64,000 nt of DNA from Azorinus chamasolen. Lineage: Eukaryota > Mollusca > Bivalvia > Cardiida > Solecurtidae. Positions 2,051 through 53,411 of this stretch are shown here, one piece after another. The notes under the pieces are model-generated. The model worked only from the letters and a program-made list of their open reading frames with translations, was not told where the DNA came from and searched no databases. Every line of letters starts with the position of its first letter. Position 1 is the first letter of the stretch. The translations under genes and the position numbers were made by a program. The stretch is taken from NCBI GenBank assembly GCA_963576725.1, contig OY755236.1, positions 72,014,379 through 72,078,378 of the forward strand, read 5' to 3'.

Positions 2051-3387
2051 CGAGGGGTGTTCCAAAAATAATGTCACTTGCATCGGTGCTCATATAGCGG
2101 AAGTGCTTTTGTTCATTTTAATTTGCTCTGCCCTTCAAAATACTCTCCGCCAGCCAGAATACACCTTTTTAGCCGGTCAATCCATTTTTGGAAGCATATT
2201 CATACTCTTCAATGGGGACACCCATCAGACACTGATAAACAGCAGATCCAAGGGCATTTCTCGAATTGTATCTCCTTCCAGATAAATGATATTTAAGTTT
2301 TGGAAAGAGAAAATAGTCGCAGGGGGCCAAGTCTGGCGAATACGGAGGGTGCGGAAGGACGGTAACCTTCTCTGACTCCAAAAAGTCAGTCACAATACGT
2401 GCCTCGTGAGCGGGTGCATTATCATGCAAAAGTCGGACATACTTAAGTCCTGTTTTGGGGCGGCTACTTTTGTAGTAGTTCTTCAATTTTCTCAGAACAA
2501 CGTTTTTATAGAACTTGCCTGTGACCGTTCTGCCTTTTGGCACCGGGATTTGAATAGCTGGACCCTTATTAGTGAAAAAAATAGCATACAAAACCTTCTT
2601 TACCGTTCGTATTCGTTTGGCAATACTTGGGCGTCTGGCATTTTTAGTGGCCCATATTCGGTTGGAAACCTTCCGCTTTGGTTCAAAATAATACACCCAG
2701 GTCTCATCACCAGTGACTATATTATCAAAAGCCTTTTTACTATATTTTGGGTACATTTTGAGAAGTTTTTTTGCCATTGTTACACGTGTCTTCTTTTGCT
2801 CATCCGTTAACAAATGGGGTATCCATCTTGCATTTATCTTTCTAACTTTTAGGTGTTTCTTCAAAATTGCATGAACTCTTGCTAACGACAAGTTTGTCAT
2901 TCGAGCCAATTGTCTTACGGTGAATCGAGCATCAGTTTTGAGGATATTTCGGATTTTTTCTATGTTACCTTTGGTCGTAGTTGTTGCAGGACGACCTGGG
3001 CGAGCAGCATCTTTCAGTTGCTGCTGCCCAGCACTAAATTTAGCTACCCACCTACAAACAGTCCTGTGGGACATTTGGCCCTCCCCATAAATGTCACACA
3101 CCTCGCGGTGAATATCTACAGCCTTTATGACGAGTAATGACCTACCTTTTATATAGGCCCTAATTTCAAGAACATTTTCAGCTCGTTTTCCTGTCATTTT
3201 GTGTATAGTCTAACGAATAGGCTATGAAACGATGTACACTGTACCGAGGCAAGTGAACGTGTGGACGAGATATTTACCTGTGTCACGAGCCAGTGATCAC
3301 TCAATCGACACGAGGTGGTTTTGTGCATGAATTGCACGATTTCCGCGAAATAAAGCACAGATGACATTATTTTTGGAACACCCCTCA
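2051..3387 (-). mobile_element. mariner-type DNA transposon, nearly intact
   Basis: A 1337-bp element flanked by TA (2049-2050 and 3388-3389). The ends are inverted repeats of about 27 bp starting GAGGGGTGTTCCAAAAATAA, with only a few mismatches. The length, TA target and DD34D transposase are those of mariner. It sits inside a 103-bp satellite: the left flank (2010-2050) and the right flank (3388 on) are the two halves of one repeat unit. Near-identity of the two ends suggests a recent insertion. Confidence 0.93.
2113..3197 (-). pseudogene. mariner transposase, one frameshift near the C-terminus
   Basis: Cut-and-paste transposase. An open frame of 342 codons runs from the Met at 3197 to a stop at 2169. 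It has the N-terminal paired HTH region (SHRTVCRWVAKF, then PGRPAT), and the three acidic residues in TGDETWVYYFEP, HDNAPAH and PHPPYSPDLAPCDYF. The second and third Asp have 34 residues between them, so this is DD34D. The family is normally about 345-355 residues. After YAS (near 2193) the frame shifts by one base. The usual C-terminal block (W-I-D-R-L-K-R-C, G-G-E-Y-F-E-G) is intact in the next frame to a stop at 2113-2115. A single-base deletion therefore removes the last 25 or so residues. Catalytic residues are kept; activity is uncertain. Confidence 0.92.
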
Positions 3388-5725: not shown

Positions 5726-5807
5726 AGGTGGTCGGTGTACTCTCCAAAAGGCTCTCTCCTGCAGGTCATGGACAAGTTTGTCATCCCTCTTCATTCCCTT
5801 CACTTGT
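5726..5807 (-). CDS. RGS (R7) exon: QERAFWRVHRPP block
   Basis: This 82-bp exon has acceptor ttctttcag and donor GTAAGT. Only one frame is open: the first A completes a Lys codon, then come QVKGMKRDDKLVHD and LQERAFWRVHRPP, ending in phase 0. RGS7 has SQERAFWDVHRPVPG and RGS9 CQEKAYWLVHRCPPG at this place, just before the GGL domain, so the family call rests largely on this exon. The next exon should begin with Gly and lead into the GGL domain. No such exon was found between 1 and 5725, so it is expected outside the window. Confidence 0.9.
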
Positions 5808-7824: not shown

Positions 7825-9718
7825 TTATTTGCTCATTCACTCAACTTACATGTAACTTTCCTTTTTGCTTATAATTCACTATTACTTAACTTATAATTCA
7901 CTATTACTTTACTTGTAATTCACTAATACTTTACTTATAATGCACTATTACTTTACTTATAATTCACTATTACTTTACTTATAATTCACTTCTTTGACTT
8001 ATAAATAACTCTCTTATCATCTTTTCAGATTACTTAGATATATTTTTTCTTGTTTTTAACCTTGTTTATTGCTAATAATGCTTGCTCTTCAGAATTTCTC
8101 ATTACTTACCTTACTAGCAGCTAGCTTACCAGTTTACTTTGTTACTTACAATGCTTGCTTATCAGTCGTTCTTGTTACTTAATTTACATGCTCATCAGCT
8201 GTTCTTGCTTTTTATGATGCTTGCTTGTCAGCTTTTCTGTTACTTACTTTATTTGCTCATCAGTTTTTCTTGCTACTTACAATGCTTGCTTATCAGTTTT
8301 TCTTGTAACTTATTTTACTTGCTCATCACCTTATTTTATCACTTATAATGCTTGCTTATCAGTTTTTCTTGTTACTCACTTTACATGTACATCAGTTGTT
8401 CTTGTTACTTACTTTTTTTTTACATGCATGCATCAGATTTTCTTGTTATTTACTTTACTGGTTAATTAGCTTTTCTTCCAACTTACTGAACTTGCTTACC
8501 AGCTTTCCTTGTTACTTATGGTGCTTGCTCATCAGCTTTCCCTGTTACTTATTATGCGTGTTCATCAGCTTTTCATGTTACTTTACTTGCTTATCAGCTT
8601 TTCTTGTTACTTACAATGCTTGCTCATCAGCTTTTCTTGTTACTTACAATGCTTGCTCATCAGCTTTACTTGTTACTTACAATGCTTGCTCATCAGCTTT
8701 TTTTGTTTAACTTATGGTGCTTGCTCATTAGCTTTTATTGTTACTTACAGTGCTTGCTCATCAGCTTTACTTGTTACTTACAATGCTTGCTCATCAGCTT
8801 TTCTTGTTACTTACAATGCTTGCTCATCAGCTTTTTTTGTTTAACTTATGGTGCTTGCTCATTAGCTTTTATTGTTACTTACAGTGCTTGCTTATCAGCT
8901 TTCCATGTTACTTATGGTGCTTGCTTATCAGCTTTCCATGTTACTTATGGTGCTTGCTTATCAGCTTTCCATGTTACTTATGGTGCTTGCTCATTAGCTT
9001 TTCTTGTTACTTATGGTGCTTGCTCATCAGCTTTCCCTGTTACTTATAATGCTTGTTCATCAGCTTCTCTTTTTACTTACTTTACTTGCACATCAGCTTT
9101 TTCTTTTTACTTACAATGCTTGCTCATCAGCTTTTCTTTATCCCTACAATATATGCTCTTCATCTTTTCTTTCTTTACTCTTCAGCCCTATGTGTGACTT
9201 ACTTTACTTGATCATCAGTTCTTCTTGTACCTTACATAACTTACTTATTAGCTTTCCTGTAACTTACTTCATTTACTTCTTTTTGTTACTTACTTCACTA
9301 AAGTCTTACTCATTAGCTTTTCTTGTTACTTCGCTTAATCCTTTGTTTTCCTTGTAACGTACTAATTAGTTTTTCTTGATATTTATTCGTTAATATTTAA
9401 CATAGCTTTTCTTGTTACATACTTTACTTATTCATTAGCTGTTAGGGTACGTACAATGCTTGCTCATCAGTTATCCTTGAAACTTACTTCACTAACTCAT
9501 TAGCTTTTCTATTTACTTATTTCACTTATTCACTAACTTTTCTTGTTATTTCACACACTCGTTGACTTTTCTTTAACTTACCTCAGTCACGTACTAGCCT
9601 TTTCCTGTTACTTAATTCACTTACTAATTAGCTTTCCTTGTTTCACTTACTAATAAGTCTTTCTTAGTTCATTATGCGTTAGTGTTTCTTGTTACTTACT
9701 TAACTTGTTCATCAGCCT
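7825..9718. repeat. 33-bp minisatellite derived from an exon/5' splice-site junction
   Basis: Roughly 50 units of 33 bp, most regular at 8500-9060. On the minus strand the unit is GCTGATGAGCAAGCATT followed by GTAAGTAACAAGAAAA. The unit at the right edge is the end of RGS exon 9700-9776 with its real donor: GCTGATGAACAAGTTAA then GTAAGTAACAAGAAA. A higher-order repeat of about 134 bp is seen at 8605-8870. 33 is a multiple of three, so all the long ORFs here are artefacts. The 7860-8000 part has a 22-bp variant period (TTATAATTCACTATTACTT). Confidence 0.9.
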
Positions 9719-9776
9719 GACATCTCACAAACCCAATTTTATCACAGAACACAATCTGCAACTTGTTGAGAGCACT
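9700..9776 (-). CDS. RGS (R7) exon: R7H/DHEX, SALNKLQ...QADEQV
   Basis: This 77-bp exon has acceptor tttctgtttcag and donor GTAAGTAAC. It starts in phase 0, reads SALNKLQIVFCDKIGFV then RCQADEQV, and leaves two bases (AA) that the first base of the next exon turns into Lys. It aligns without gaps to the family segment with SLARLQ, F, K-W-E/D-F and MQAxxQ. The Trp that the vertebrate members keep is Ile here (KIGF). The exon sits between a family C MITE that begins 58 bp upstream of the acceptor and a 33-bp minisatellite that starts at the donor. The last 18 bases of the exon are the coding half of the repeat unit. Confidence 0.82.
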
Positions 9777-13244: not shown

Positions 13245-13420
13245 AATATAATTTTTGACTGACAACCAATGAAGTTGCAGCTAGGTTTTTGTGCATGTTC
13301 AGATCATGGAATCAGTTGTACAACTTCTAAATACTAGAGGTTTTTGTCACAAAAACGGATGTCTCCCCTCTAATAAAAACAATAATAGCTAATAACTCCA
13401 AAAATACTGATACCAGATTT

Positions 13421-15066
13421 ATGGCTCTTGTGCATGACACTTACTTTCATCATAGGGTATTAATTAGGAATCAAATTGACAGTCAGTGCAAAAATGAAGA
13501 TATATTCCATATTCCACTCATTACTGATGAATACATACAAACTATTCTTGACAAAATTGATATAGGTAAAGCAACTGGCTTAGATGGAATAAGCGCAAAA
13601 TTCTTACAAATCAGCAGCAGTGTTATTTCAAAGCCTCTTCAAAAAATTATCAATCTCAGTATCAGACACAGCAAATACCCTAGTCTATTCAAAAGAGCTA
13701 AAGTTACACCAATCTTTAAAAATGGTTCTAAGTCTGAAAAAAATAACTACAGACCAATCTCAATTCTACCCGTTATATCAAAAGTTATTGAAAAACATGT
13801 ATGTGATCATTTTAAACAGTTTCTTGAGAAGCACAAATTACTGCATTTACATCAGTCTGGCTTTCGGTCAAATCATTCTTGTGAGACTGCTCTTACCTGT
13901 ATTGTAGATAACTGGATAGGTGCCATTAATGATAACAAAGTTGTAGGTACAATTTTTCTGGACCTCACAAAAGCTTTTGATCTAGTTAATCACTCGTTAC
14001 TTATTGAAAAATTGGCTTGCTACAATATGTCATCATCTTCACTGAAATGGTTTGAGTCATATTTAATGGACAGATCCCAGAAAGTTAATTTCTCTGGTCA
14101 ACTCTCAGAATCTCTAAATATTTTATCTGGAGTCCCACAAGGCTCTGTGTTAGGTCCATTGTTGTTTATCATATACATTAATGACCTTCCCTTGCACCTG
14201 AATAATTCAAATACAAATATGTTTGCTGATGATACTTCCCTTACTATAGATGGAGAGACAATTGAATCTGTTCAGGATTTAATGCAAAGTGAGCTTGTAA
14301 CTGTAGAAAATTGGTGTAAAGACAATGCAATGTTACTCAATACACAGAAGACGAAAGCCATGTTCATATCTTCATCTCACCATGTGTTAAATAAAGTAAA
14401 GTCATCAAATGAGAAACTTCAGTTGAATGATATTTATATAGAATACAGTGAAATAGAAAAACTTCTTGGAGTTCAAGTAGATAATGGGCTGAAATGGAGA
14501 GAGCATATTGAAAAGACCCTTAAAAAATGTAATTCCAATCTTTATTTACTTTTAAGGATAAAACAGTTTCTTTATATACATACAAGAAAACTGTTTTTTA
14601 ATGCTTAATTCTGCCCCACTTAGACTATTGTTGTACGATTTGGGGTAATTGTTCGCAAGAGCTTCAAAATCGGGTAATAAAATTCCAGAAAAGAGCTGCT
14701 CGCATAATTTTGGATAAGGATTTTGATGCACCATCTGAGACACTATTTCAGGAACTGCATTGGATGACTTTTCCAGAAAGAGTTAACTACAAGAAGGCAA
14801 TCTTTGTTTACAAATCTCTTCATTGTGAAAATTTCCCAGATTATATGCTTACAAAATTCCAGCTTTCATCCAATGGCAGAAATCTTAGATCAGCAACAAA
14901 CGGAAACCTGAAAGTGCCCAAACCTAAGACAGAGTTTTTTCGCAAGTCTCTATCATACTCTGGACCAAAACTTTGGAATACCCTTCCAATTCTGATAAGA
15001 AACTCTGATACTCTGAGTACCTTTAAAAAATCATATCTTCAGTGGAAGTTCTCTGGTAATGCCTAA
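13421..15066 (+). pseudogene. LINE reverse transcriptase, frameshifted
   Basis: Target-primed reverse transcriptase remnant. The first open frame (13421-14608) has the RT blocks in order: KATGLDGISAKFL, the fingers motif NYRPISILPVISK, SGFRSNHSCETAL, D-L-T-K-A-F-D, GVPQGSVLGPLLF and the catalytic FADDTSL. A one-base loss at about 14605 ends this frame; the thumb and C-terminal region continue in the next frame to 15066 (HLDYCCTIWGN, FQKRAARIIL, SYSGPKLWNTLP). There is no endonuclease domain, so it is 5'-truncated. The first 11 codons (MALVHDTYFHH) are not LINE: they come from the family H repeat it landed in, so the apparent start is chimeric. CR1/L2 or Jockey type; the clade is not certain. 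Confidence 0.88.
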
Positions 15067-26631: not shown

Positions 26632-28204
26632 AACAAGAGTACCGCATACGGTACATAATACGCCCACTTGCAAACTTTCTCCAATTCAACATGCCTTATA
26701 AGTGTTGACATTTTCTAATCTGTGCTTCAGATCTTGATTTCCATATTAAGGTGGTACTATTTTTTTAAAAAATGAAGTGAATATCTTATTAAATAAAAAA
26801 GTTACAGCTAATCCTCATTTTTGCAGATTTTTGTAAAGTGCAACGGCCATAACTCTGTAAAGACAAACTGAATGAACCTCAAAATAAACTCAGCTTCAAA
26901 TTTTGTTGCTTAAAACATTTGTGTTAAGTTGTTAAGTTTCATTTATATCAACCGACAAACTAAATATTTACCGACTAACAAAGCAACAAACACACAAAGT
27001 TCAAGGACCATAACATTAGAATAAAATGACATATCAAAACCCCCGCAATATATATGAAAATTCACATTAAGGTTTAACCATATAAAAAAATTGAAGCAAA
27101 TATAATTTTAAATGAAAAAGTTATGGCCATCCTCATATTTGCATAGATTTGCATTATTTTTTTAAGTGCAAGGGCCATAACTCCGAAACATTTAATCAAA
27201 TGATCCTATGACTCGACTTAGCTTTAGGTCTAGATGCATTAAACATGTGTATGAAGTTTCAAAAATATCTGTCAAATAGTTTTCCCAGAAAACAGCGGAC
27301 AAACTATTTGCATATTTTTCAAGGACAAGGGCCATAACTCTGAAATGAAAAATCAAATGAACCTCAGAATCAACCCAGCTTCAGATCTTGATGCATTAAA
27401 CATTTGTGTGAAGTTTCATTAATATCTGTCATATAGTTTTCCCAGAAAACAGCAGACAAACTATTTGCTTGTATTTGCATTATTTTTCAAGTAAAAGGGC
27501 CATAACTCCGAAACGACAAATCAAATGAGCCTCAGAATCGACTTAGCTTCAGACCTTGATGCATTAAACATTTGTGTGAAGTTTCATTAATATCTGTCAA
27601 ATAGTTTTCCCAGAAAACAGCGGACTAACTATTTGCATATTTTTAAGGACAAGGGCCACAACTCCGAAACGACAAATCAAATGAACCTCAGAATCATTTC
27701 AGCTTCAGATCTTGATGCATTAAACATTTGTGTGAAGTTTCATTAATATCTGTCAAATAATTTTCCCAGAAAACAGCGGACAAACTATTTGCATGTATTT
27801 GCATTATTTTTTTAAGTAAAAGGGCCATAACTCCGAAATGACAAATCAAATGAACCTCAGAATCGACTCAGCTTCAGATCTTGATGCATTAAACATTTGT
27901 GTGAAGTTTCATTAATATCTCTCAAATAGTTTTCCCAGAAAACAGCGGACAAACTATTTGCATATTATTTAAGGACAAGGGCCATAACTCCGAAATGACA
28001 AATCAAATGAACCTCAGAATCAACTCAGCTTCAGATCTTCATGCATTTAACATTTGTGTGAAGTTTCATTAATATCTGTCTAATAGTTTTCCCAGAAAAC
28101 AGCGGACAAACAAAATGTTGACGGACGAACGAACGAACGAACGGACGGACGGACGGACAGGGCCACGACAATATACGACCACCTTTATTAGGTGGGCGTA
28201 TAAA
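26632..28204 (+). mobile_element. Tandem-core element, family I, full length
   Basis: Starts ACAAGAGTACCGCATACGGT and ATACGCCCACTT, carries about seven core units of alternating about 153 and 170 bp (CAAATGAACCTCAGAATC; TTTTCCCAGAAAACAGC), a GAACGGACGGACGGACGGAC spacer and a 3' hairpin CCACCTTTATTAGGTGG followed by GCGTATAAAA. Family A MITE halves flank it (26540-26631, 28205-28237). Confidence 0.82.
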
Positions 28205-28237
28205 AAACTTTCCTTGGTCAGGATGCCATTATAACCT

Positions 28238-28696
28238 TAACCCATTACCTCATAGGCTATTTTTTTTGGGGGGACGCTAACATTTTTTAAGACCCTTGAT
28301 CAAAAGCCCCTTGGCTCCAAAATGACCAGGTGATCAATAGCCCCCTGATGGAAAATGCAAGGTCATCAAAAGCCCCCTGATTGAAAAATCCCCTTGGTAT
28401 TAAAGCACAACAGAACTTTCATGTTTGAAAAAAGTCATGTTTAATCAGATTCTAGTTGGGTTTGATTCTGTGACTGAGTCTACACTCTATATTTAGAGAC
28501 AACCTCTTTGAATAAATCTACCAAAAAGAAGCATTAACTAGAGAAAAGTAAAATTTTAGAATTTTGTAGTTTGAAACCATTGTGATAAATAGAGCATTTG
28601 CTCCTATAGGAGCAAATGCTCTATTTATCACAATGGTTTCATTAGGTGACTTTTACAGAGGCGTAGAAAGGCGTATTTATGGAGGAAAGGGTTAAG
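28238..28696. mobile_element. MITE family B with an internal insert
   Basis: TTAACCCATTACCTCATAGG start, GGAGGAAAGGGTTAA end, intact palindrome (GCATTTGCTCCTATAGGAGC). About 200 bp of unrelated text (28268-28488, GATCAAAAGCCCCTTGG repeated) interrupts the left part. Confidence 0.82.
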
Positions 28697-28762
28697 CTAA
28701 CCAATATTCATACATTCGTTATTTCTAATATGAATACACATGAATTAAATTACATAATTACA

Positions 28763-28973
28763 TTAACCCGTTACTCCATAAATATATCTTTCTACACCTG
28801 TGCAAAAAGAGTGGACCCAGATAAGATGACTCCTGTTTGTAATATAGATATCATTCTAGTTTCTGCCATGGGCAAAACTTCCTGTGTCCATGATTGTGCT
28901 ATTATAACAATTAATCAAATTAATATTAATGATGTCATTTTTTTTACATGAATATTCATGGAGTACAGGGTTA
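28763..28973. mobile_element. MITE family A, hairpin right arm deleted
   Basis: TTAACCCGTTACTCCATAAA start, CATGGAGTACAGGGTTAA end. AGAGTGGACCCAGATAAGAT is present but its partner arm is missing. Confidence 0.75.
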
Positions 28974-29030
28974 AATTGCATTAGATACAAATTATGAAAT
29001 ATTGACCATTTAGATGATTTCTGGTCTAAT

Positions 29031-29265
29031 TTAACCCATTCCCGCATAGGCTATTTTTAGATCCAACCTCTTTGATTAAATCTACCAAAAAGGAGCATTA
29101 ACTAGAGAAAAGGAATTTTTCAGAATTGTGTAGTTTTGAAACCATTGTGATGAATAGAGCATTTGCTTCTGTAGAGCAAATTAATGCTTTATTTATCACA
29201 ATGGTTTCACAAAGTGACTTTTACAGAAGCATCAAAAGGCGTCAATATGAGGGAATGGATTAACA
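29031..29265. mobile_element. MITE family B
   Basis: TTAACCCATTCCCGCATAGG start, TATGAGGGAATGGATTAA end, palindrome slightly damaged at the apex. Confidence 0.83.
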
Positions 29266-29307
29266 AGGGTATCATTATTTCTGGTAGCCTCCTTGGACAT
29301 TATGAAC

Positions 29308-29434
29308 TTAACCCATTCTTCTTTGAAACCATACACAGTTCAAAACTTTTCTCTCTTTTCTTTGTAAATGCTCCTTTTCAGTAGATTTGTTCAAAGAGGT
29401 TGGATCTAAAAATAGCCTATGAGGGAATGGGCTA
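29308..29434. mobile_element. MITE family B, inverted and internally deleted
   Basis: TTAACCCATTCTTCTTTGAA at the left and AAAAATAGCCTATGAGGGAA with TGGGCTA at the right. The palindrome is missing. Confidence 0.7.
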
Positions 29435-29559
29435 GAAAAAAATTATATGTTTATCTTTAAACCTTATAAGCAATTGATGTCTGTCTAAATGAAGATTTTT
29501 TCTTTTGTATTTTTGTTTAATTACATTCTGAGTGTCAAACAGTTTGACTCCTAATTCAA

Positions 29560-29978
29560 TTACCTCATAGGCTATTTTTAGATCCAACCTCTTTAAATAA
29601 ATCTACTGAAAAGGAGCATTAACTAGAACAAGAGCACCGCAAGCGGGTGCAACACTCGTCTGTCGTCATTGTCAAGATGAACATGCATACCAAAAATGAA
29701 GGTTGTAAATGAAAAATTGAAGAAGTTATGGTCAATGTTAAGATACGATGACATCGACAACGCGGACACCGGAGTTATGACATGTACAATAGCTCGTGAT
29801 TTCTTCGAAACAGACAAGCTAAAAAAGGAAATTTTAGAATTGTGTAGCTTAGAAACCATTGTGATAAATAGAGCATTAATTTTGTTCCTATGGAGCAAAT
29901 GCTCTATTATCACAATGGTTTAAAAAATTGAATTTTTTCAGAGGTGTCAAAAGGCATCAGTATGAGGGAATGGATTAA
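29560..29978. mobile_element. MITE family B, split by a small ACAAGAGC element
   Basis: CAATTACCTCATAGGCT at the left, TATGAGGGAATGGATTAA at the right, palindrome at 29855-29920 with an extended apex. The insert is at 29627-29826. Confidence 0.78.
29627..29826 (+). mobile_element. Small ACAAGAGCACCGC element inside a family B MITE
   Basis: Starts ACAAGAGCACCGCAAGCGGG, ends ACAGACAAGCTAAAA. A related stretch is at 17980-18100 (GAGCACCGCATG ... CAGACCAGCTAAAAAC). It splits the family B copy at 29560-29978. Confidence 0.6.
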
Positions 29979-30104
29979 ATAAGAAGCCTTTTTACTCAAG
30001 TCTAATTTTGGATTAAAACTGCTGGCAAAATTTATCTGTAGCATACAGACTAAACACAGTACTGCTGATTCACATGCCCACAGTACCTGACATTTTAGCC
30101 GGGC

Positions 30105-30265
30105 CTTTACTCCATGAATATTAATGCAAGATCTTTGTATGTATGAATATGAATTAGCTAAGTATTTATTATAGCATATTTATGATAAAGAACAAACTAC
30201 ACACTTAGACCTATATTATTCCATAAGCAAACAGAGCAGACCCTGATCAGATGACTCCTATCTGC
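30105..30265. mobile_element. MITE family A, partial
   Basis: GCCTTTACTCCATGAATATT, then GCAAACAGAGCAGACCCTGA. The right part is deleted. Confidence 0.55.
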
Positions 30266-30586
30266 AAAGGCATGTACCTATGGTATAATTAGGGCTAAGG
30301 TGCTGTTGGGTCCCATATTAACCTTTAGCCTGCTGAGCAAATTATTTTATCTGAATTTTTCACCTTCTACATTTTAAAAAAAAAAGCCATAATCAATTTA
30401 TCTACCAAAATGCAATCAGAGTGTCAAACAGTTTGGATCCTGTTTGGATTTTTGGCCATGGCCTGGCCATGGATCTACAGTGTGCAGTATGTAGAGATGT
30501 ATGATCAGGACCATCTCTGCTTGCTGTTGAAATAATATAGATCTGATTCTAAAAAATCTAGGATGCTCAAAATGCTGCTGTTCAAT

Positions 30587-30815
30587 TTACCCCATTCCTC
30601 CATACGCTATTTTTAGACCCGACCTCTTTGAATAAATTTACCCAAAAAGAGCATTTAGTTGGGAAAAGGAAAATTTTACAATTGTGTAGTTTTGAAACCA
30701 TTGTGATAAATAGAGCATTTGCTCCATAGGAGCAAATGCTCTATTTATCACAATGGTTTCATTAAGTGACTTTTACAGAGGCGTAGAAATGCCTATTTAT
30801 GGAGAAAAGGGTTAA
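30587..30815. mobile_element. MITE family B, duplicated with its right flank
   Basis: CCCCATTCCTCCATACGCT start, TGGAGAAAAGGGTTAA end, intact palindrome. The right flank AGACGGTTCTTGAACACAAG is also found after the copy at 31192-31434. Confidence 0.82.
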
Positions 30816-30962
30816 AAGACGGTTCTTGAACACAAGATTATTTTACCTGGGTCAGAACTTTGGAATGATATCTTTATATATTTCCATAAGGAAACAAAGC
30901 CATCTGAACTGGGTCTACTCTGTTTGCAAAGGCATGAAAAGGTGCTTATATTGGATTTTTTT

Positions 30963-31130
30963 TTAACTCTTTACTCCACGAATATTCATGTATCAACTAA
31001 TGACATCATCAATATTAATTAGATTAAAGAAATTATAGAATCATATCTATATTATACCATACAGGAGACATCTGATCTGGGTCTACTCTGTTTGTAAAGG
31101 CATAGAAAAGTGTAATTATGGAGTAAAGGT
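30963..31130. mobile_element. MITE family A, partial
   Basis: TTAACTCTTTACTCCACGAA start, ATCTGATCTGGGTCTACTCT and TTATGGAGTAAAGG near the end; the left hairpin arm is missing. Confidence 0.65.
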
Positions 31131-31191
31131 ATTTTGGTAATGGCTGCATCTTGTATGTGGCATTTCATGCTAGACTTTAGTATTGTTTTCA

Positions 31192-31434
31192 TTAACCCAT
31201 TCCTCCATAGGCTATTTTTAGACCTAACCTCTTTGAACGAATCTACCGAAAAGGAGCATTAACTAGAGAAAAAGGATTTTTTTTAGAATTTTGTAATTTG
31301 AAACTATTGTGATAAAAAGAGCATTTGATCTTAATATAGGAGCAAATGCTCTATTTATCACAATGGTTTCATTAAGTGACTTTTACAGAGGCGTAGAAAT
31401 GCCTATTTAAAGTATTTATTGAGAAAAGGGTTAA
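31192..31434. mobile_element. MITE family B, duplicated with its right flank
   Basis: TTAA at both ends, palindrome GCATTTGATCTTAATATAGG... with a changed apex. Followed by the same 35-bp flank as the copy at 30587. Confidence 0.83.
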
Positions 31435-31929
31435 AGACGGTTCTTGAACACAAGATTATTTTACCTGGGTCAGATTGAAAGGCGTAGATTAAGGGCGTTT
31501 TTATGGAGGAAAGAGTTAATAAAGTATAGAGTTGAGGTATACTTTTCTCTAATAAGGCTGTTTAACAGTTTGATTCTTGGTGAGCTGCTGAATTACTCTA
31601 TGTCTCATCTGGATCCAGGATGTCTTTATCATGTCTTTATCATGATCAGAAATTCACCACAGGCGAGCAACAACTGAATTTTCTCAACGGTATAAGTATT
31701 GGAAAATACTGAGAACATGAATGAGACTATTTTTCATTCATAACATCAAAAAGACTCCTGAGAGAATTTTTTAGATTCTGCCATTATTTTATTGGGAATA
31801 ATGTTCTGCATTAACGCAAGTTTTCAATACCCTCTGCTTCGAATTTACTTTGAGAAATTGAATTAAATTCAATGTTTAGCACCAAAAATATTACTGGCCA
31901 ATCCTATGATCAATATTCAAGCTAAATGA

Positions 31930-32115
31930 ATTTTAACCCCTGCAATATGGGGAATATAATAACTGGCACTAAACTTCCTGGAGGAAGCCCCTGATCAGGG
32001 TCTGCACTGTTTGACATTTCATAATTCTTTGCAGTGAAATTCATCTTTTACTACAGAATGGATTTTACTCAATGATAGACCATTCCACTTTGGAAATTCA
32101 GCATTCAGAGGATTA
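31930..32115. mobile_element. MITE family D, partial
   Basis: TTTTAACCCCTGCAATATGG start, CTGATCAGGGTCTGCACTGT and TTTGACATTTC, GGAAATTCAGCATTCAGAGG end, matching the D copies at 12133 and 62780. Confidence 0.55.
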
Positions 32116-32576
32116 ATAAAGTTTTGGACCAAGGAAATATCTCAGTTTGCCAATGTTTTTCTTGCACAATAGAACTAAAAGCTAAACGACCTTCAAAACA
32201 GCACAGAGCTGAAGTATCCTTATAGACTACACAAAACCCGGACTGATTTTGTATGCAGGAAACAAGTGTGCTGGTATTTGAGAACACTGCAGATCCTGAT
32301 CACAGGGTTTCCACTGGTTCCTAGGACTACTCTGATCAGAATCTGTACTGTTTGGCACTCAAGTCCTCCAGTAAACTCAAACCTTTCCTTCAAATATATG
32401 CCTTTTCATACATTTGCAAACAGAGTAGACCCAGATAAGACGACTTCTTAGTAGGAGCTGCCTGATCAGGGTCTGCTCTGTTTACTAATGGAATTTTATA
32501 GATCTGTTTCCTTAGTTTATTAATTTGGCTACAATGGTCTACCATCCATATTTGGATATGGGTCTAATGCCTCTCT

Positions 32577-32895
32577 TTAACCTTTCCCTGTTCTATATTT
32601 AGTCCAAATGTCAATACCCACAGTATATTCATGGACAAGGGTTATTAACCCTTTCTCTGATATAAACGTGTTTTCACGCATTTGCAAACAGAGTAGACCC
32701 AGATCAGATGGCTCCTCTAGGATCAGGATCAGGGTCTGCTCTGTTTGCTGATGGAATTTGAAAGATCTGTTTATTTCCTTTCTAAAATGGCTAAAAAGTT
32801 TCACCTTCCATATTTCATCTTATAGGAGCCATCTGATCTGGGTCTACTCTGTTTGCAAATGCTTGAAAATGCCTTTATATAAAGGAAAAGGTTAA
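32577..32895. mobile_element. Two overlapping MITE family A copies
   Basis: Outer ends TTAACCTTTCCCTGTTCTAT and AAAGGAAAAGGTTAA. A second copy begins TTAACCCTTTCTCTGATATA at 32645 and holds the GTAGACCCAGATCAGATGGC hairpin. One looks inserted in the other. Confidence 0.65.
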
Positions 32896-33098
32896 CTCTG
32901 CTAGAAAGTGATTATTCATCAGCAACAATTAGCGCCTGCTTCAATTCTTAAAATAAAAATTACTCTCATTACCTTGCAAAAAGTATGGTCAGAGTGTCAA
33001 ACAGTTTGGATCCTGATGAGACGCCGCATTATGCGGCGTCTCATCTGGATCCAAACTGTTTGCATAAGTCATCACGCTTTCAGCGTGCAAAGAGTTAA
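32895..33098. mobile_element. MITE family D2 (GAGACGCCGC hairpin)
   Basis: TTAACTCTGC at the left, AGCGTGCAAAGAGTTAA at the right. Perfect hairpin AAACAGTTTGGATCC, GATGAGACGCCGCATTATGC, GGCGTCTCATCTGG. Confidence 0.82.
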
Positions 33099-33899
33099 TA
33101 ATAGTACCAGAAAAGCAAGCTAGTTACAAATTGAACAAAGTCCTACTAAGCGGTATGATTTATTTGCAAATCTGATATTTCCGAAAATTAACTCATCTTT
33201 CTTGTAAAAGTGTATTAATGTGAATGCTACAATCTCTAAGGACCAATTTTAGCTAACATTGAATGATTATTCTCTTCAGAGATATTCTACTTGACCCTAC
33301 AAATGCTGATTTTTCAAAGTGAAAAAGTCCATCATTGTACAATAGCAGAGTGGTCTTAGCATAAAAGAATGAAAGGATTTTAGAAGGCTATATAGTGTAG
33401 ACCTTGATCACAGAAATTCTCCCTAGTAAACCTTTTAATCTAGGTCTTCACTGTTTGCAAATGCAAGTTTACTCGTTTCCAGCATTCAGATGGATAGTAC
33501 CCACGCGACCAATTTGCTCACCTCTTCTTTACATTTCTTGATACAAAAGCTACCTGAACAGTTCATTTTAATTCAGATAAGAATAAAACAAAGAGCAAAA
33601 ACTAAAATCTTCAACAGATTTACAACGAAATATTTAATGACTGAAATTATCTATATACATGTACATTTGTCAGAGAAATTACTAATTAATGAAGATGAAA
33701 AAGAAAATTGAAAGCTACTTAGTCCATTCTGCTTACATGCCTGTATTCTTACAATGCTACATCAATCTATGGTAAAACCTCCTATGAGAAAATGGGTTAA
33801 TCTGTAGTAATTTACAAAACTATTATTGTGCCCATAGATGGATTCCCCTCCCCCACCTTCCACCATTGACATGAAATAAGAGAAGTGCCTGACAACTCT

Positions 33900-34083
33900 T
33901 AAACCCTTTATTCCATGAAAAATTCATGCACATGAACACAGGAAATTTTGCATGACAGATACTGTAGAATCATATCATAAGCAAACAGAGCAGACCCTGG
34001 TCAGACGGCTCCTACAGGAGCCATTTGATCTGGGTCTCCTGTTTGCATAGGTGTAGAAAAGCGTATTCATGGAGTAAGGAATT
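33900..34083. mobile_element. MITE family A
   Basis: AACCCTTTATTCCATGAA start, TTCATGGAGTAAGGAATTA end, apex ACGGCTCCTACAGGAGCC. Confidence 0.78.
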
Positions 34084-34327
34084 ACATAGTTTCACCGGTC
34101 AAAATTTATATAACGACTAAAACCAAGGTGCACAACTTTATATCCCAATAAAATATTTATGAAGTTTGATGACAATAAGTTAAGAAGCAGTGCAGGCCAC
34201 AAATGCCATACTTTTGACAAAGTAAAGGGTCATAACACTGGCACTACAAGCAAAAATCTAAAACCAACGGTCCTGCAGATCATAATTATAATCAAACTTA
34301 TTGTAGGTCCTAATTTATGATAGTTGC

Positions 34328-34519
34328 GGTAAAACCCCTCTAAACTGGAATTCTAGAAGAGAAGAATTTAGATACATTATAGGCAGGTGGCTACTTAATG
34401 CAGGGTGAAAGTTATGCTGACTTTCTGCAAGACTTTCACCCTGCATTAAGTTGCCACCAGTCCTGTCTCCACGACAGATATTTATACTAAATTGAACACG
34501 CTTTTCAAAGGGTTTTACT
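34328..34519. mobile_element. MITE family C
   Basis: GGTAAAACCCCTCTAAACTG at the left, AAGGGTTTTACTA at the right, internal palindrome GCAGGGTGAAAGT / ACTTTCACCCTGC. Confidence 0.78.
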
Positions 34520-34540
34520 ACACTATTAGCATACCGTATT

Positions 34541-35288
34541 TCACCTTATAGAAGTGCCATCCCTAATAGTAGCTCCCCCTATGATATACGCTTGGGAATG
34601 CCATCGGGGTCACTTTCAACTTACCCCACCCACCTCACCTTACCTCAAGCCCAAAAGTTGGCAAAGAAAAAAAAATTCATTGCATCATTACTTATTTTAT
34701 GATTAAACACCGAAACAAGATCAATCTTAGCCATTGTATCTGACCGTTAACCGCTATCAAATCAGTAATTGATTCATTGATTCAACGTTTCGATCCACAC
34801 AATGGCTTTATTTAGGGCAACAGATTTCGGTTTGGTATAAAACTCTGCCAGCTTTGGTCAATATTTTGTCTACAAACAGTTTGGAATCATAGGGGCCTCA
34901 TACTGCTTCATGGGAGTCTATATTATATGCTATACAATAATAGTAAGTAAAAACTCCAATGAAGCGTTTTGAACGAAATATCCCTGTTCTATCAAATCAA
35001 TACCATGACGACGGTGATTATTTTACCAAAACAAAATTTGCCAAGAAATTAGAGTTTGTCAATAACAATAACAATCGAAGTTATACACATTTACTTGTAA
35101 AAACAAAAAGAAGAAACTCTAAGTCACAATATATCAATACAATGATAGTTATAACAAATAAGTTGGCCATAAGTCTCTTCAACATTGTTGATGGCGGGGA
35201 TAAAAACGATTTTTTGGTATGAAATAAAAGCGCCCTGTTAGCGTTTTTCATGGCACCCCAGTGCTTTTAATAGGTGATATATGGTAGC
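34541..35288. mobile_element. Unclassified TIR transposon, non-autonomous
   Basis: TACCGTATTTCACCTTATAG at the left and, inverted, TACCATATATCACCTATTAA at the right (ends at 35288). Next to the ends lie AGTAGCTCCCCC and AAAGCGCCC-like stretches. The small ORF inside (34959-35222) has no recognisable domain. Confidence 0.55.
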
Positions 35289-35595
35289 CAAAACAGCCAA
35301 ATAGTGAGAATTTGGGCTAACTATGTATGACAGAAATTATCTTTAGTTCTAATATAAGACGATCACAACATCCAGTTGCAGTTAGGACTGTTACTTTGTC
35401 AAAATGACAAAGTCAGAGGTCATGTTAGAGCTCACGAAAATTTCTGTCATACGATCTTACATTAAAGGCCCCCAGGTGCACATCATTCTTATCCCAGTTT
35501 CTATCTCAATAAGTATGTGTATGAAGTTTAATGACTATAGGACAATTTGTACAGGAGCAGTACATGCCACAAACTTGCCATTTTTAAATGCCTGA

Positions 35596-35806
35596 ACTCT
35601 TTCCACACTAGTAGTCAAACTGTGATTACCTATGCAAACAGTTTGGGTCCAGATGAGACATCACATAATGTAACATCTCATCAGGATCCAAAAGGTTTGA
35701 CACTTTGATCATATTTTTGCAAAGAAATGAGAGAAATTTTATTTTAAGAATTGAAGCAGACGACAATTGCTGCATATGAACATTTGTATAGCGTGCAAAG
35801 AGTTAA
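35596..35806. mobile_element. MITE family D2
   Basis: GAACTCTTTCCACACTAGTA start, AGCGTGCAAAGAGTTAA end. Hairpin AAACAGTTTGGGTCCAGATG / CATCTCATCAGGATCC. A fragment of the same family lies at 20668-20765. Confidence 0.75.
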
Positions 35807-35937
35807 TTTCTGTAATAATATTATCTTCAAGTATCGCTTAAACATTTTAGTTCTGTTTTTGAAAATGAATTGTTTGCAGATCTGTTTGGGCATAATGTTT
35901 GATGTTTATGTGAAATATGAAAAAGTATCACAACAAT

Positions 35938-36152
35938 TAACCCATTCCATCATACTGACAACTTTTGACGACTCTGTAAATGTCACATTGTGAAACCATT
36001 GTGATAAATAGAGCATTTGCTCCTATATTTATCACAATGGTTTCAGCCTACAAAATTCTAAAAATGTTCCTTTTCTCTAATTAATGCTCCTTTTCGGTTG
36101 ATTTATTCAAAGAGGTTACATCTAAAAATAGCCTATGAGGTAATGGGTTAAA
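35938..36152. mobile_element. MITE family B, inverted
   Basis: TTAACCCATTCCATCATACT start, AAAATAGCCTATGAGGTAAT and GGGTTAA end, palindrome with a shortened apex. Confidence 0.82.
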
Positions 36153-36711
36153 TATGTGTTAATCCATTGAGTATGCACTGATAAAGTTAGACAAACTCAC
36201 ATTGAAATATTAAAACGAGACAGTCATAAAAAATTGCAAAAGAATTTATTATCATTCCAGTCAAGTTTAAATTTTCAAACAGTCATCAGTAATCAGTCAT
36301 CAGTAATCGCTTGAAGCCAGACAAAAGCAGACCACCAGCAGTCAATTTATAGCCGATATGCATGCATTAAAATAGTTTGGGTACCTCAAAATATTAATTT
36401 TTAGCCCTGTGTTTTCTAGAAAAGTTTGATACATACAACTGTCATAAGCATCTGTAGTTACTAAGATTTAAAATGTCCAACATACAAAAGTGCTTCTCAG
36501 GACAGGGCAATTATGGAAAATGAATGTTAATCCTCAATCTAATGCACATGTACATTAATGAAGAGTGGAGCTTACCATTATTCAATAGGGATGACTTGCA
36601 CAATGTTGTGAAAATAAATGACATAGTTCATAGTATGACATCAATCTCTCCCATAGGAACTGTTTGATCTGGATCAACTCTGTTTGCAAATGCATGAAAA
36701 GGCATTTAACC

Positions 36712-36931
36712 CTTTCCAGTTTCCTCCAGAAATACGCCTTTCTACGCCACTGTAAATGTCATTTCTTGAAACCATATTGATAAATAGAGCATTTGCTCCT
36801 ATCACAATGGTTTCAAAACTAAACAGTTCTAACATTTTCCTTTTCTCTAGTAAATGCTCCTTTTCAGTAGATTTTTTATAGAGGTTGGGTCTAAAAAATA
36901 AACTATGAAGTAATGGGGGGGGGGGGGGTTA
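36712..36931. mobile_element. MITE family B, inverted, with G14 at its end
   Basis: Starts AACCCTTTCCAG, palindrome GCATTTGCTCCTATCACAAT (apex deleted), right end TAAACTATGAAGTAAT and a run of 14 G (36915-36928) before TTAA. Confidence 0.75.
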
Positions 36932-37399
36932 ATTAATGATAATCATGATCAAAAGTGATATATACACATACTGAGATAGAAGAATTGCTGAGATAGCATA
37001 GGTTCAGTTGCAAAATAAAGCAGATGACAGCTTCAGCAGAAAAACTATTTCCTCTGAGTACTAGGGAATTATTTTGTATGAAGCATTTCGACTAACCCTT
37101 TGAATGCTGAATACTGAAAGCAGAAATTGCCCATCACTGTTTAATAGTCTAGTCCATTCAGTAATAACAGCTGAACATTTTAAGTGACAAACAATACAGA
37201 CCCTGATCAAAAGGTTCCATTTGCAAATGACAGCTAACCCATTTAAAGGGCTTATACTTGCAAACACTGTCTATTCTCACAAAAGGTCTTTCGTCTTTTC
37301 TGACTCATAAGTAACTTATAATTTCTTGCATGCCTATCTACTATTGTCAGGTGTCCTCAGAATATTGATATCTTATTCAAATTCAAGACACCCACCCCC

Positions 37400-37629
37400 A
37401 AACCCTTCTACTCCATAAATACACCTTTTTACGCCTAGTTTGCGAACAGAATAGACTCAGATTAAACAGAGCTGTCAGATCAGGATCTCCTCTGTTTGCT
37501 TATGATATAATATAGATATGACCCCACAGTTTCTGCCATGGCCAAACATTTCTGTGTCTTGTGCTATTATAACTGTAACAATTAATCTAATTACTATTCA
37601 AGATGAATATTCATGGAGTAAAGGGTTAA
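37400..37629. mobile_element. MITE family A
   Basis: AACCCTTCTACTCCATAAAT start, TTCATGGAGTAAAGGGTTAA end, eroded hairpin GCGAACAGAATAGACTCAGA / GATCTCCTCTGTTTGC. Confidence 0.78.
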
Positions 37630-37716
37630 CAAAAATGACCAGTTTGACATAATTTGAATCCTCTTTGACATTTCATTTTGATTAAAAATATGTGCAAAGG
37701 TTATACAAGTAACATA

Positions 37717-37908
37717 CAGTAAAATCTCGATTACTGAACACTAAATATGTATCATTATTGATCTTTAAGACAGGTGGCAGCTTAATTAAGCAGGGTGAAG
37801 TCACGCAGAAAGCTTCTCTTGGAGCTTTCTCCATGACTTCCACCATGCATTAGGCAGCCACCTGCCTAAAATGGTCTACACTCTTCTATACAAATCGAGA
37901 TTTTACTG
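37717..37908. mobile_element. MITE family C
   Basis: TA at 37715-37716 and 37909-37910, ends CAGTAAAATCTCGATTACTG and ATCGAGATTTTACTG, apex AAGCTTCTCTTGGAGCTT. Confidence 0.83.
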
Positions 37909-38184
37909 TATATATTGTTAGCATGCAATGCATTGGAACATCAGCCCTAAAACACTAAGAGCATGATCATTTTATATCTGCCATGAATAATGACAGGACA
38001 GACACTAGTTTTTATCCAATTTTAACCGTCTCCTAAGTGCCAAATTCAATTTCATCACCAGCCAAATGCACAGTATAATCAATACCACACATCCCCCTCT
38101 CCAAATAGTTCAGGCATACGACAATATAATACAACTTCTCTTAAGCAACCACTAACTTTAAACTAGGAGTCTAATTCCCAGTCT

Positions 38185-38403
38185 TTAACCATTTACATAA
38201 TGACTTTTTATGCCTTTGTAAACACAGTTGACCCAGATCAGACAGCTCCTGTAGGACACACATGTCTAATCAAATGTGGCTCTGCTTGTTTACATGTTAC
38301 AAAACTAATTATCTACTGTTTGACATATCTTACAATTCAATACAATAATTAATTAACATTCATAATGGACAGTCTTACATAAATATTCATCAAGTAAATG
38401 GTT
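38185..38403. mobile_element. MITE family A
   Basis: TTAACCATTTACATAATGAC start, CATCAAGTAAATGGTTA end, damaged hairpin GACCCAGATCAGACAGCTCC. Confidence 0.7.
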
Positions 38404-38544
38404 ATACCTAGTGTTTGCTTAATGCAATCAAGGTCTGCTCTGTTTGCCTATGGAATAATATATATCTTATCCTACAGGTTGTGCCATGGTCAACATTTCC
38501 TCATTCAAGATGCCATTATAAAAGTTCAGCTACTTTAATCCTTT

Positions 38545-39075
38545 ACTCAACAAGGTCAAAGATGTTTGTAAAACATGTATACCCCCAGACTCGCTGACCT
38601 TTGAACCTCAGAAACAATTGGGGTCATCTAGTGGTCATGACTAATCACAACAGCAAGTTTGAAGATACTAAGCCAAACCCTTGAGTAGTTATTGATCTGA
38701 AACCATTTCACCAGTTAAGTCATGGTGACCTTGACCTTTGACCTAGTGATCTCAAAAACAATAGGGGTCATCTAGTGGTCATGACCAATCACCACATCAG
38801 GTTTTAAGATCCTAAGCCAGACCCTTGAGCAGTTATTGATCGGAAACAATTTCACCAGTTCAGATCATGGTGACATTTGACCTAGTGACCTGAAAAACAA
38901 TAGGGTCATCTAGTGGTCATGACCAACCTCGACAGCAAGTTTGAAGATCCTACGCCATGTCGTTTATCAGTTATTGATCGGATATCGTTTGATCTATTGA
39001 CAAACAGACAGACAGACTGACATGTGCATGATTTGCACTATACCCTCACTTTTTTCGAAAGGGGGATATAATAAA
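38545..39075 (+). mobile_element. Tandem-core element, family E
   Basis: AGATGTTTGTAAAACATGTA and TACCCCCAGAC at the left, three core units (GACCTTTGACCTAGTGA; GGGGTCATCTAGTGGTCATG) of about 145 bp, ACAGACAGACAGACTGACAT spacer, end AAAGGGGGATATAATAAA, inverse to the TATACCCCC near the start. Confidence 0.75.
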
Positions 39076-39261
39076 TACACATTTCTACATCTTTGCAAAC
39101 ACAAGTAAACCCAGCCAGATCAGACGACTTCTACAAAAAAAGACGACTCCTACAGGAGTCGTCTGATCAGGGTCTGCTCTGTTTGTTATGAAATATTATA
39201 GCTATAATTCTAGTTTCTATCGTGGCCAAACATTCCTGTGTGCATATGCCAATATAAAAAT
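39060..39261. mobile_element. MITE family A, left part, cut by family M element
   Basis: GCAAACACAAGTAAACCCAG, a duplicated apex (GACGACTCCTACAGGAGTCG), GGTCTGCTCTGTTTG and CATATGCCAATATAAAAATT up to the start of family M. Confidence 0.7.
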
Positions 39262-40015
39262 TAACAAGAAATGTCGACACGACATCAAACCGGGTTTTCC
39301 TTCACTATTAACTGGTGATTTCTAAGTTCAAAGGGGTATAACTCCCAGAACAAGAAATGTGTCACAGTACGTGACAAATGCCCCCAAAGCAAAGCACTGA
39401 CAATATGCGTTTTGTAAGCAGGCCTGCAATATGCAACTGCAAAATGAAAGTAAAGATTGCATAGTAAGACCACAATTTGAACTCAAGTAACCCCAAATGA
39501 CAATCTTTTTTTCATATTTGAGGTCAAAGGTCAAGGTCATGGCCACATGACCAACAAAAAGTATGCAACATTCTACAATCCGAAGATAAACTCATACACC
39601 ATATTTAGTGATCCTAGCTGATTCGGTGTAGGGATGACAAGCTTTTTTGTAAATGAAGTCAAAGGTCAAGGTCATGGTCACACTGACCTATTAATAGTAT
39701 GCGACACTCTGCTATCCCAAGATCTACTCACAAACCATATTTGGTGATCCTAGCTGAAGTAGTGTAGAAGATATGCTCCGGACAAGCCTTTTTTTAAAAT
39801 GAGGTCAAAGGTCAAGGTCACATTAACCTATAACTAGTATGTGATCCCAAGACGAACTCACACACCACATTTGGTGATCCTAGTTGATTCAGTGTAGGAG
39901 GTCACATTAACCTAAAATTAGTACGCAAAACACTCCGCCAACCCAAGACGAACTCACATGCCATATTTGGCGATCCTAGCTGATTCAGTATAGGAGGTAT
40001 CTTGCTGCTACTTAT
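39262..40015 (+). mobile_element. Tandem-core element, family M, 3' end unclear
   Basis: Starts ACAAGAAATGTCGACACGAC in the middle of a family A MITE (left half 39060-39261). Three to four core units with AGGTCAAAGGTCAAGGTCA and TTTGGTGATCCTAGCTGATT. The right limit is where the units stop; no hairpin was identified. Confidence 0.65.
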
Positions 40016-40081
40016 TAGAATCACCTCTCAGAAGATTTTTATAGATCAATATGCATCTTATCTACAGCACTGAGTACTTGT

Positions 40082-40322
40082 TAACCCATTCCCACATAGG
40101 TTATTTTCAGATCCAACCTCTTTGAATGAATCTACCAAAATGGAGCATTAACTAGTAAAGAAGGATTTTTTTTAGAATTTTGTAGTTTTGAAACAATTGT
40201 GATAAATAAAGCATTAAGATTTTGCTCCTATGGAGCATAATTATACTCTATTTATCACAATGGTTTCAAGAAGTGACTATTGCAGAGGTATAGAAAGGCA
40301 TATTTATGGAGGAAAGGGTTAA
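40082..40322. mobile_element. MITE family B
   Basis: TTAACCCATTCCCACATAGG start, TATGGAGGAAAGGGTTAA end, palindrome with several changes. Confidence 0.83.
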
Positions 40323-41039
40323 CAGCACTCTAGTGACTATTCATTTCCAAATCTGTATGTGGATTTTGCTGTAAACATCCATATACAACTGATAATTGTA
40401 AAACACTACCCTTACCGTAATGAATGCTTTTGAAAACATGTATGTATTACTCATTTGATGACTATAGAAGCTGTTCCATCTGTTTGATATTGTGTCATGG
40501 GGGAGACAGGTAAATCATACAAACAAAAGTTTAATTCTTTACCCGATAATCCCACCATTTTATTCCTTGCAACAAGAGTAGATCCATATCAAACAGCTTC
40601 TCTATGAACTGTCTGATCTGGCTCTGCTATTTGCTTATTCATTTCAGATCTCATTCTATCGTGCAACGTCATCGAATACAGTCACTTCCTACTAGCATAA
40701 TATTTTCCAAGTTGACACTGTATTTTGTGAGGTATAGTGCATGTGTACTGACCTGACTAGAATGCAAGTTTGGTTCAGCCAAGAGGAAAAAAACAGAAGG
40801 ACGAAAAAGGCATAATTAAAAATAAACATCAAATTAACACATTTTCTCACCTTTGTCTCAACTATCTGTTCATATAAAAGGATTAAATCAAGTTTGTTTA
40901 TGTTGTAAAAGTCGATGACGTCGCTGCATGCCAATATGACGTCAGGTATTACGTACTTACATGTATTTTCATTCAGGGGACGAAACCGCTTTAGCAATCT
41001 TTCTTTTTCTTCATTTTCTCCACTTTTCTTGGAGTTGTA
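40323..41039. other. Stretch without a gene
   Basis: A decayed family A-like piece (40530-40640) and a minus-strand ORF (40692-40997) of 101 codons with no recognisable domain. Otherwise nothing that I can support. Confidence 0.55.
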
Positions 41040-41196
41040 TGATAAAAGAATTACTATGCTAGTAGTTTGGAAGTTCAGCTGTATTTTGGCTCGTCAGAAA
41101 AGTAGTTAAATGCTCGCCAAGGCTCGCATTTAACAACTTTTCTAACTCGCCAAAATACAGCTGAACTTCCAAACTACTAGCATAGTAATTCTTATC
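41040..41196. repeat. Foldback hairpin, arms about 68 bp
   Basis: Left arm AGAATTACTATGCTAGTAG and TTTGGAAGTTCAGCTG; right arm CAGCTGAACTTCCAAA and CTACTAGCATAGTAATTCT. A few mismatches, loop around 41120. It could be a foldback MITE. Confidence 0.85.
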
Positions 41197-41456
41197 TCTA
41201 CCGTTTGCAAAGGTATTGAATTTCCTTATTTGCTATTTCTAATTCAAGAATTAAATTTATAGTGGGCATAGTCTTGTAGAATACTCATCAGGTAAAGGAT
41301 TGAAATCAGAAAAATCCGAAAGGATTTAAATTGTTTGGCTCTTGCAAAATATACATACTTTAGTCTACCACTAACACAAATAGTGCATACTCTGATCTGA
41401 ACCAAATTTCTTATATTAAGGCTGATCTGCATTTACACAGTTCATGATATTCATAC

Positions 41457-41645: not shown

Positions 41646-41649
41646 AAAC

Positions 41650-44045: not shown

Positions 44046-44110
44046 CTGTTCATACTCTTCAAGACCATGTTTCTGTTTGTTTCGTTGACTTCGCTTCAAG
44101 AGGTATATAA
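44046..44110 (-). CDS. RGS (R7) exon: R7H/DHEX, IIYLLKR...LEEYEQ
   Basis: This 65-bp exon has acceptor ctttcag and donor GTAAG. The first two bases complete an Ile codon from the previous exon. The rest reads IYLLKRSQRNKQKHGLEEYE and Q, ending in phase 0. The vertebrate family has Y-A-V/I-YLxKR at the start and, in RGS9, LEEYE near the end, with the same spacing. This helical linker (R7H/DHEX) packs between the DEP domain and Gbeta5. The intron that follows is about 34 kb, by far the largest in the locus, and begins with a truncated family B MITE whose end is partly duplicated (43889-44010). Confidence 0.87.
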
Positions 44111-49607: not shown

Positions 49608-49659
49608 TGTATTTTTCATTTGTAAGCTTCAGATTCTTTGACGGCCAGTAGTAAGGACA
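49608..49659 (-). CDS. RGS (R7) exon: DEP/R7H junction, CPYYWPS
   Basis: This 52-bp exon lies between acceptor ttattgcag and donor GTAAGT. It starts in phase 0 directly after the LYRFQ end of the DEP exon and encodes CPYYWPSKNLKLTNEKY plus one leftover base. The family has TPYFWPS at exactly this place after YRFQ, so the order and spacing agree. The leftover base (A) is completed by TT of the next exon to give Ile. The exon is too short to appear as an ORF. A SINE at 49004-49525 ends less than 100 bp downstream on the gene strand. Confidence is high because homology, phase and both splice sites agree. Confidence 0.87.
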
Positions 49660-53250: not shown

Positions 53251-53411
53251 CTGGAATCTGTAGAGCACGGACTTGTCATCCTTCGCAACAAACGACTTTA
53301 GATCCACTGGGTAGATGTACCCATACATACACAAGAAAGTGGCCAGCTGGATGGCTTCTAATGTGTCCTTCTCACAGATTCTGTCCGACAGCCAGGCTAT
53401 CAATTCACTAC
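53251..53411 (-). CDS. RGS (R7) exon: DEP domain part
   Basis: This 161-bp exon has acceptor ttttcag and donor GTGAGA. It begins with two bases that complete a split codon and ends in phase 0. It encodes 53 residues starting SELIAWLSDRI, with LEAIQLATF, GYIYPVDL and ending SVLYRFQ. This is the second half of a DEP domain as in R7 RGS proteins, where the equivalent segments are GSDVLQW..., GYIYP and LYRFQ. In the family the DEP domain binds the membrane anchors R9AP/R7BP and contacts Gbeta5 or receptors. A MITE of family B ends at 53496, only 85 bp from the acceptor, so the upstream intron side carries a large hairpin close to the splice site. Identification is strong from motif order and from the next exon continuing the match. 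Confidence 0.88.

Follow-up and report, generated by a model that had tools for sequence, protein, structure and literature searches.

The minisatellite of the human gene IFI6 (6-16, G1P3) spans an exon-intron boundary, where about 26 copies of a 12-bp unit are arranged with the reading frame kept. In intron gain by tandem duplication, a new intron arises from a duplicated exon segment that bears AGGT. Multiple splice donors are a feature of the IFI6 minisatellite (Turri, Cuin and Porter 1995, Nucleic Acids Res 23:1854), and a second source describes two downstream repeat units as serving as donors (PMC4526556). In human genes located in segmental duplications, alternative splicing can arise from tandem repeats at exon-intron boundaries, which may also form new introns; the units measure 30 bp on average, are present in 4 units on average and lie in coding exons in half of the cases (PMC2812944). 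Intron gain by tandem genomic duplication is treated in two further studies (PMC4974935, PMC3443670); passages of an article on earthworm metallothionein (PMC12783039) and of a review (PMC12771815) had no bearing on junction-derived arrays.

The locus considered here lies in the bivalve Azorinus chamasolen, within a window of 64,000 nucleotides, the term denoting the whole stretch of DNA that was analysed. With a probability of roughly 0.8, it holds a mostly silent minisatellite that was born in place from an exon/5′ splice-site junction of an R7-type RGS gene. Both this array and that of IFI6 are minisatellites within a gene whose units carry splice donors. A minisatellite with multiple splice donors is therefore not unprecedented, although a first-pass annotation knew of no described case. 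Unlike IFI6, the RGS array has a 33-bp unit in about 57 copies, its donors are predicted, and any downstream donor would lead to an immediate stop; it is also set apart by the clear record of its birth. In contrast to the boundary repeats of segmental duplications, the RGS copies lie in an old intron and contain hardly any acceptor-like sites. With intron gain by tandem duplication the array shares a tandemly duplicated segment that carries splice-site sequence, but it adds no intron. Such a gain has the duplicate supply both donor and acceptor, and in the array a single YAG site among 28 has at least 60% pyrimidine in the preceding 15 nt.

The host of the array is, judging by its exons, an R7-type RGS gene on the minus strand. 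As in RGS7 and RGS9 of the R7 family, exons for the DEP, DHEX, GGL and RGS domains follow one another in this order on one strand, and the exons found cover about 146 kb. When joined, the exons in the window match the solved structures of human RGS7 (E 1.7e-29) and RGS9 (E 3.3e-24). In order of transcription they are as follows.

53251..53411, minus strand: DEP-domain exon, its putative 5′ limit placed at an AG
49608..49659, minus strand: exon of the RGS gene, CPYYWPSKNLKLTNEKY
44046..44110, minus strand: exon of the RGS gene, IYLLKRSQRNKQKHGLEEYEQ
9700..9776, minus strand: 77-nt exon assigned by homology, C-terminal part of DHEX, starting in phase 0 and ending in phase 2 (GTTAA/GTAAGT, the slash marking the splice site here and below)
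5726..5807, minus strand: next exon after the junction exon, QVKGMKRDDKLVHDLQERAFWRVHRPP, completing the split K codon

An upstream candidate for the N-terminal exon (locus L004) is weak (E 0.009, with a piece of RGS7 as query), and the downstream GGL and RGS exons (loci L008, L009 and L010) gave best E values per exon of 1.2e-8, 8.9e-14, 0.006 and 2.2e-8. With an N-terminal exon likely upstream and the GGL and RGS exons downstream, the gene seems complete, and the shared order and strand suggest that the distant exons are spliced into one transcript. A Pfam scan of minus-strand frames, covering positions up to 43000 and a single frame for 28001-43000, returned one weak HTH match in addition to DHEX and domains of transposase type; a search of a phage collection gave no match. 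At 2169-3209 of the window (minus strand) an open frame of 346 codons with mariner-type transposase domains (HTH_48, DDE_3) may represent an intact element, and at 13331-15066 (plus strand) two open frames resemble the reverse transcriptase of non-LTR retrotransposons, a label given by reading.

The exon at 9776-9700 is preceded by TTTCAG, ends in GTTAA and is followed by GTAAGTAAC, so that it is bordered by AG and GT and its intron begins at 9699 (GTAAGTAACAAGAAA). Its end splits a lysine codon, whose last base comes from the exon at 5807-5726. The translation, SALNKLQIVFCDKIGFVRCQADEQVK, falls within the alignment to RGS7 and RGS9 and to the homologues P0001-P0005, and the E and Q of its ADEQ are conserved in all five aligned homologues. 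At the exon end RGS7 has the residues QAEAQAK and RGS9 has QAKEQYR. P0002 alone matches the exon, at 46% (E 0.058).

The array lies across the end of this exon and the first part of the intron.

9684..9716, minus strand: junction unit of 17 coding and 16 intron bases, from which the repeat probably descends, 27/33 identical to the core consensus
7825..9699, minus strand: intronic minisatellite with a 33-bp unit and 57 units by cyclic alignment, most uniform in its core (8140-9169) and decayed at both ends
8632..8899, minus strand: two adjacent four-unit blocks of 134 bp, 131/134 identical
7864..7990, minus strand: sub-array of 22-bp period at the far end (Tandem Repeats Finder), possibly derived from the 33-bp unit

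Coordinates and letters of both junction and array proved to be as the first-pass annotation had described them, and its estimate of about 50 units compares with the 58 units that cyclic alignment of 9716-7825 yields, namely the junction unit and 57 intronic ones. The unit length lies within the 10-100 bp of a tandem array. At least 24 of the 33 positions match the core consensus in 38 of the 57 intronic units; mean likeness to this consensus is 90% for units in 9169-8600 and 67-68% in the two end stretches. The paired blocks at 8632..8899, which Tandem Repeats Finder also detects as a 134-bp period, are, from their near identity, a recent block duplication. Read from its units, the array has the pattern of a minisatellite that is still turning over in the middle and decaying at its edges. 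It is purine-rich, and when its antisense reading frame was compared with predicted proteins, none of the 8000 candidates scored reached E 0.001. Another minisatellite in the window (41968-42624) consists of 36 copies of an 18-bp unit, CTGTTTGCAACATTCATA, and its plus strand contains long open frames.

The consensus of 30 core units (GCTGATGAGCAAGCATTGTAAGTAACAAGAAAA) and the junction (GCTGATGAACAAGTTAAGTAAGTAACAAGAAAC) are identical at 27 of 33 positions, divided into 12/17 in the exon part and 15/16 in the intron part. This agrees with the earlier description of the unit as the last 17-18 coding bases joined to the donor and the first intron bases. Outside the array, the best ungapped site in the window reaches 19/33 on the minus strand and 23/33 on the plus strand. 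An alignment of the junction with the intron that follows it scores 24, and none of 200 dinucleotide shuffles exceeds 18; the junction so passes the comparison with shuffled sequence on which that description had been staked. Four other junctions of the same gene are unremarkable in the same test, where 40, 194, 58 and 165 of 200 shuffles did as well. Tested without its intron half, the 9700 junction scores 13, and none of 200 shuffles goes above 12; at the other four junctions the exon half alone was equalled by as few as 6 of 200 shuffles, at 44046, and 6 of 62,107 positions outside the array match the exon half of the consensus at 12/17 or better. Since the exon half alone is modest evidence, the case rests on both halves jointly.

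A fit to the 33-bp profile, scored piecewise with 100 shuffles per piece, gave z 7.2 for the junction unit (17 exon and 16 intron bases) and z 4.3 to 55 for each of six stretches from 9683 to 8000. The fit is weak at 7999-7825, which includes the 22-bp period (z 3.8, with 1 of 100 shuffles as good), and is absent from the remainder of exon 9700-9776 and from 7824-7600. The array thus spans the exon-intron boundary, the exon being a predicted one known from homology and from a paralogue.

The sense strand of the array contains 25 copies of GTAAGT, of which one is the real donor and 24 are extra, compared with none on the antisense strand and 14 on the remaining minus strand of the window; 500 dinucleotide shuffles of the array gave a mean of 3.2 and a maximum of 9. 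An in-register GT is present in 31 of the 57 intronic units and the consensus donor GTAAGT in 20 of 57. Scored with a weight matrix of human frequencies, the real donor TAA/GTAAGT reaches a modest 3.90, and the highest-scoring decoys are the following.

8104..8109, minus strand: strongest decoy donor, AAG/GTAAGT, score 8.58 with the human-frequency matrix
9576..9581, minus strand: second strong decoy donor, GAG/GTAAGT, score 7.78 with the same matrix, 118 nt into the intron

The proposal that many units keep a strong donor and that the intron starts with dozens of decoys holds as to the presence of many decoys but calls for moderation as to dozens of strong ones: the extra GTAAGT motifs number 24, the 20 units just counted keep GTAAGT, and 14 decoys score at least as high as a real donor that is itself modest. 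By pairing energy with the 5′ end of U1, 9 decoys equal or beat the real donor. The commonest form of the unit, CATT/GTAAGT (8 units), has a poor base ahead of the site, and CACC/ATAAGT (7 units) has lost G+1. Reading past the exon into the intron adds a stop soon after the true junction, as the first-pass annotation had foreseen: the frame runs through ADEQVK and then meets TAA, and therefore every decoy would yield one identical truncated protein. Because the purine-rich array offers hardly any acceptor-like sites, decoys could mainly just lengthen the exon.

These motifs lead to the strongest of the alternatives, in which the array is functional: the extra 5′ splice sites would compete for U1 and retain or redirect splicing, and array length would, by way of transcripts that stop at once, tune the amount of full-length RGS protein. 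The number of extra donors, the 14 that rival the real one in the human-frequency matrix and the uniform stop after ADEQVK all speak for it, as does IFI6, whose repeat donors are described as used (PMC4526556). So does the conservation of donor positions +2 to +6, which are kept better than any other block of the unit, with a mean of 0.935 compared with 0.82-0.84 at positions 1-13 and 24-33 and 0.55 at positions 14-17; a single amplified unit variant enters these figures many times over, and TAAGT may serve as an anchor for the alignment. Against it, G+1 is among the least-kept G positions. It is retained in 33/55 units, similarly to positions 4 (36/55) and 7 (31/52), and five other consensus G positions are better kept (41/56, 42/54, 50/57, 50/55 and 46/56). 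Selection against decoys was considered as a reading of this loss and set aside, given that two other G positions are lost about as often and that one amplified variant is counted repeatedly. The conservation data pull in opposite directions and make no clear case for selection on the donors.

Further points also weigh against functional decoys. Close triplets of GTAAGT, counted genome-wide as overlapping matches and not as arrays, number 16,266, and the reversed pattern gives 23,636. Repeats that bear donors are thus not favoured across the genome, and a special enrichment of donor-bearing arrays was rejected. The predicted accessibility of GUAAGU is slightly under the local mean (0.149 vs 0.203), an uninformative estimate, and the paralogue described below has no array. 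No sign of function emerged from the sequence, and a functional decoy array is consequently unlikely; the recurrent recruitment of U1, the altered splicing and the varying copy number that the first-pass annotation envisaged are hypothetical. A shade less probable still is its most specific form, in which the intron would act as a copy-number-dependent splicing rheostat, with about two dozen decoys holding U1 and diverting part of the RGS pre-mRNA to the form with the immediate stop.

Donor-like motifs were also noticed in repeats elsewhere in the genome. At G000:C1:7373466-7373987 the unit of a 28-bp minisatellite combines a donor-like CTG/GTAAGT with an acceptor-like TTCTTTCAG. At G000:C1:10469269-10469868 (locus L032) a repeat of about 37 bp has AAAG/GTAAGT in several units and starts near CACTAAG/GTAAGT; it could be a second junction-derived array and is a candidate for one.

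An artefact of the assembly or of the gene model, giving a wrong array length or an exon that is not used, is improbable. The array length comes from one assembly and the exon is predicted, but the exon agrees in phase with its neighbours on either side and completes a conserved domain, and the unit sequences differ among themselves, which shows that the array is no simple stutter.

Likeness alone gives no direction to the copying, since the unit and the junction are one sequence, and to this extent an array that existed first, with the exon end later moved into the repeat, would look the same. The homologues and the paralogue decide against this order of events, which is very improbable and was rejected. 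RGS7, RGS9, P0001, P0002 and P0003 all align without a gap from exon 9700-9776 into the next exon, and at the exon end P0004 stops while P0005 diverges into unrelated residues. The window gene lies on contig C2, and a second, more RGS7-like R7 gene on contig C1 provides the paralogous exon.

G000:C1:110093955-110094113, minus strand: paralogous exon of the second R7 gene, RGS7-like, corresponding as one exon to two exons of the window gene

Its predicted end, GCTCAAGCAAA followed by GTATGT (GCAAA/GTATGT), corresponds in place and phase to that at 9700, and no repeat signal was found across the 1,495 bases downstream of it. The junction is therefore older than the array, its place being kept in the homologues and a matching exon end being present, with no array, in the paralogue. 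Copying from exon to array is strongly indicated by these comparisons, and most likely the array arose where it now lies.

An origin of the array from a dispersed satellite or mobile element resembling the junction by chance, in a genome rich in minisatellites (51 Tandem Repeats Finder rows, some overlapping, in 64 kb), is just as improbable and was rejected within 3 mismatches by a pattern search of the 1.72-Gb genome (137 contigs), in which all 16 matches to the unit, 15 array units and the junction, fell at the array locus, with none elsewhere and none for the reversed control. The pattern caught just these 15 units and the junction, so more diverged copies elsewhere would escape it; in all 18 neighbouring 10-kb stretches there was no ungapped match of 22/33 or better. 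The first-pass annotation's claim of amplification in place and in the orientation of the gene is borne out by this restriction to one locus, within 3 mismatches, and by the priority of the junction.

Birth in place from the junction, followed by mostly silent expansion, would have proceeded as follows. A 33-bp segment across the old exon/5′ splice-site junction would have been duplicated head to tail, with the copy placed at the start of the intron that it borders, and slippage or unequal exchange may then have expanded it to about 57 units. The first copy, which serves as the actual exon end and donor, would for that reason stay intact. The remaining copies, being intronic, would be free to drift, with recent block duplications presumably keeping the core uniform. 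The extra donors are probably silent for the most part: the real site stands first beside the exon, and many copies lack G+1 or carry a poor preceding base, which makes silence the most likely outcome. With two decoys far outscoring the real donor, this silence is not guaranteed. Leaky use of a decoy would produce a transcript whose reading halts after ADEQVK, short of the GGL and RGS domains; the mis-spliced RNA would probably be degraded.

It is unusually clear what the parent sequence was, in which direction copying ran and that the array is confined to a single locus, and the locus therefore offers a natural experiment on how one donor comes to be chosen by the spliceosome from about two dozen near-copies. 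The RGS array also illustrates the birth of a minisatellite from functional sequence and the decay of its copies once selection is lifted. If the decoys were used, the length of the array would act as an inherited control on a signalling gene; were the intron indeed a rheostat, individuals with differing array lengths would make differing amounts of a G-protein regulator.
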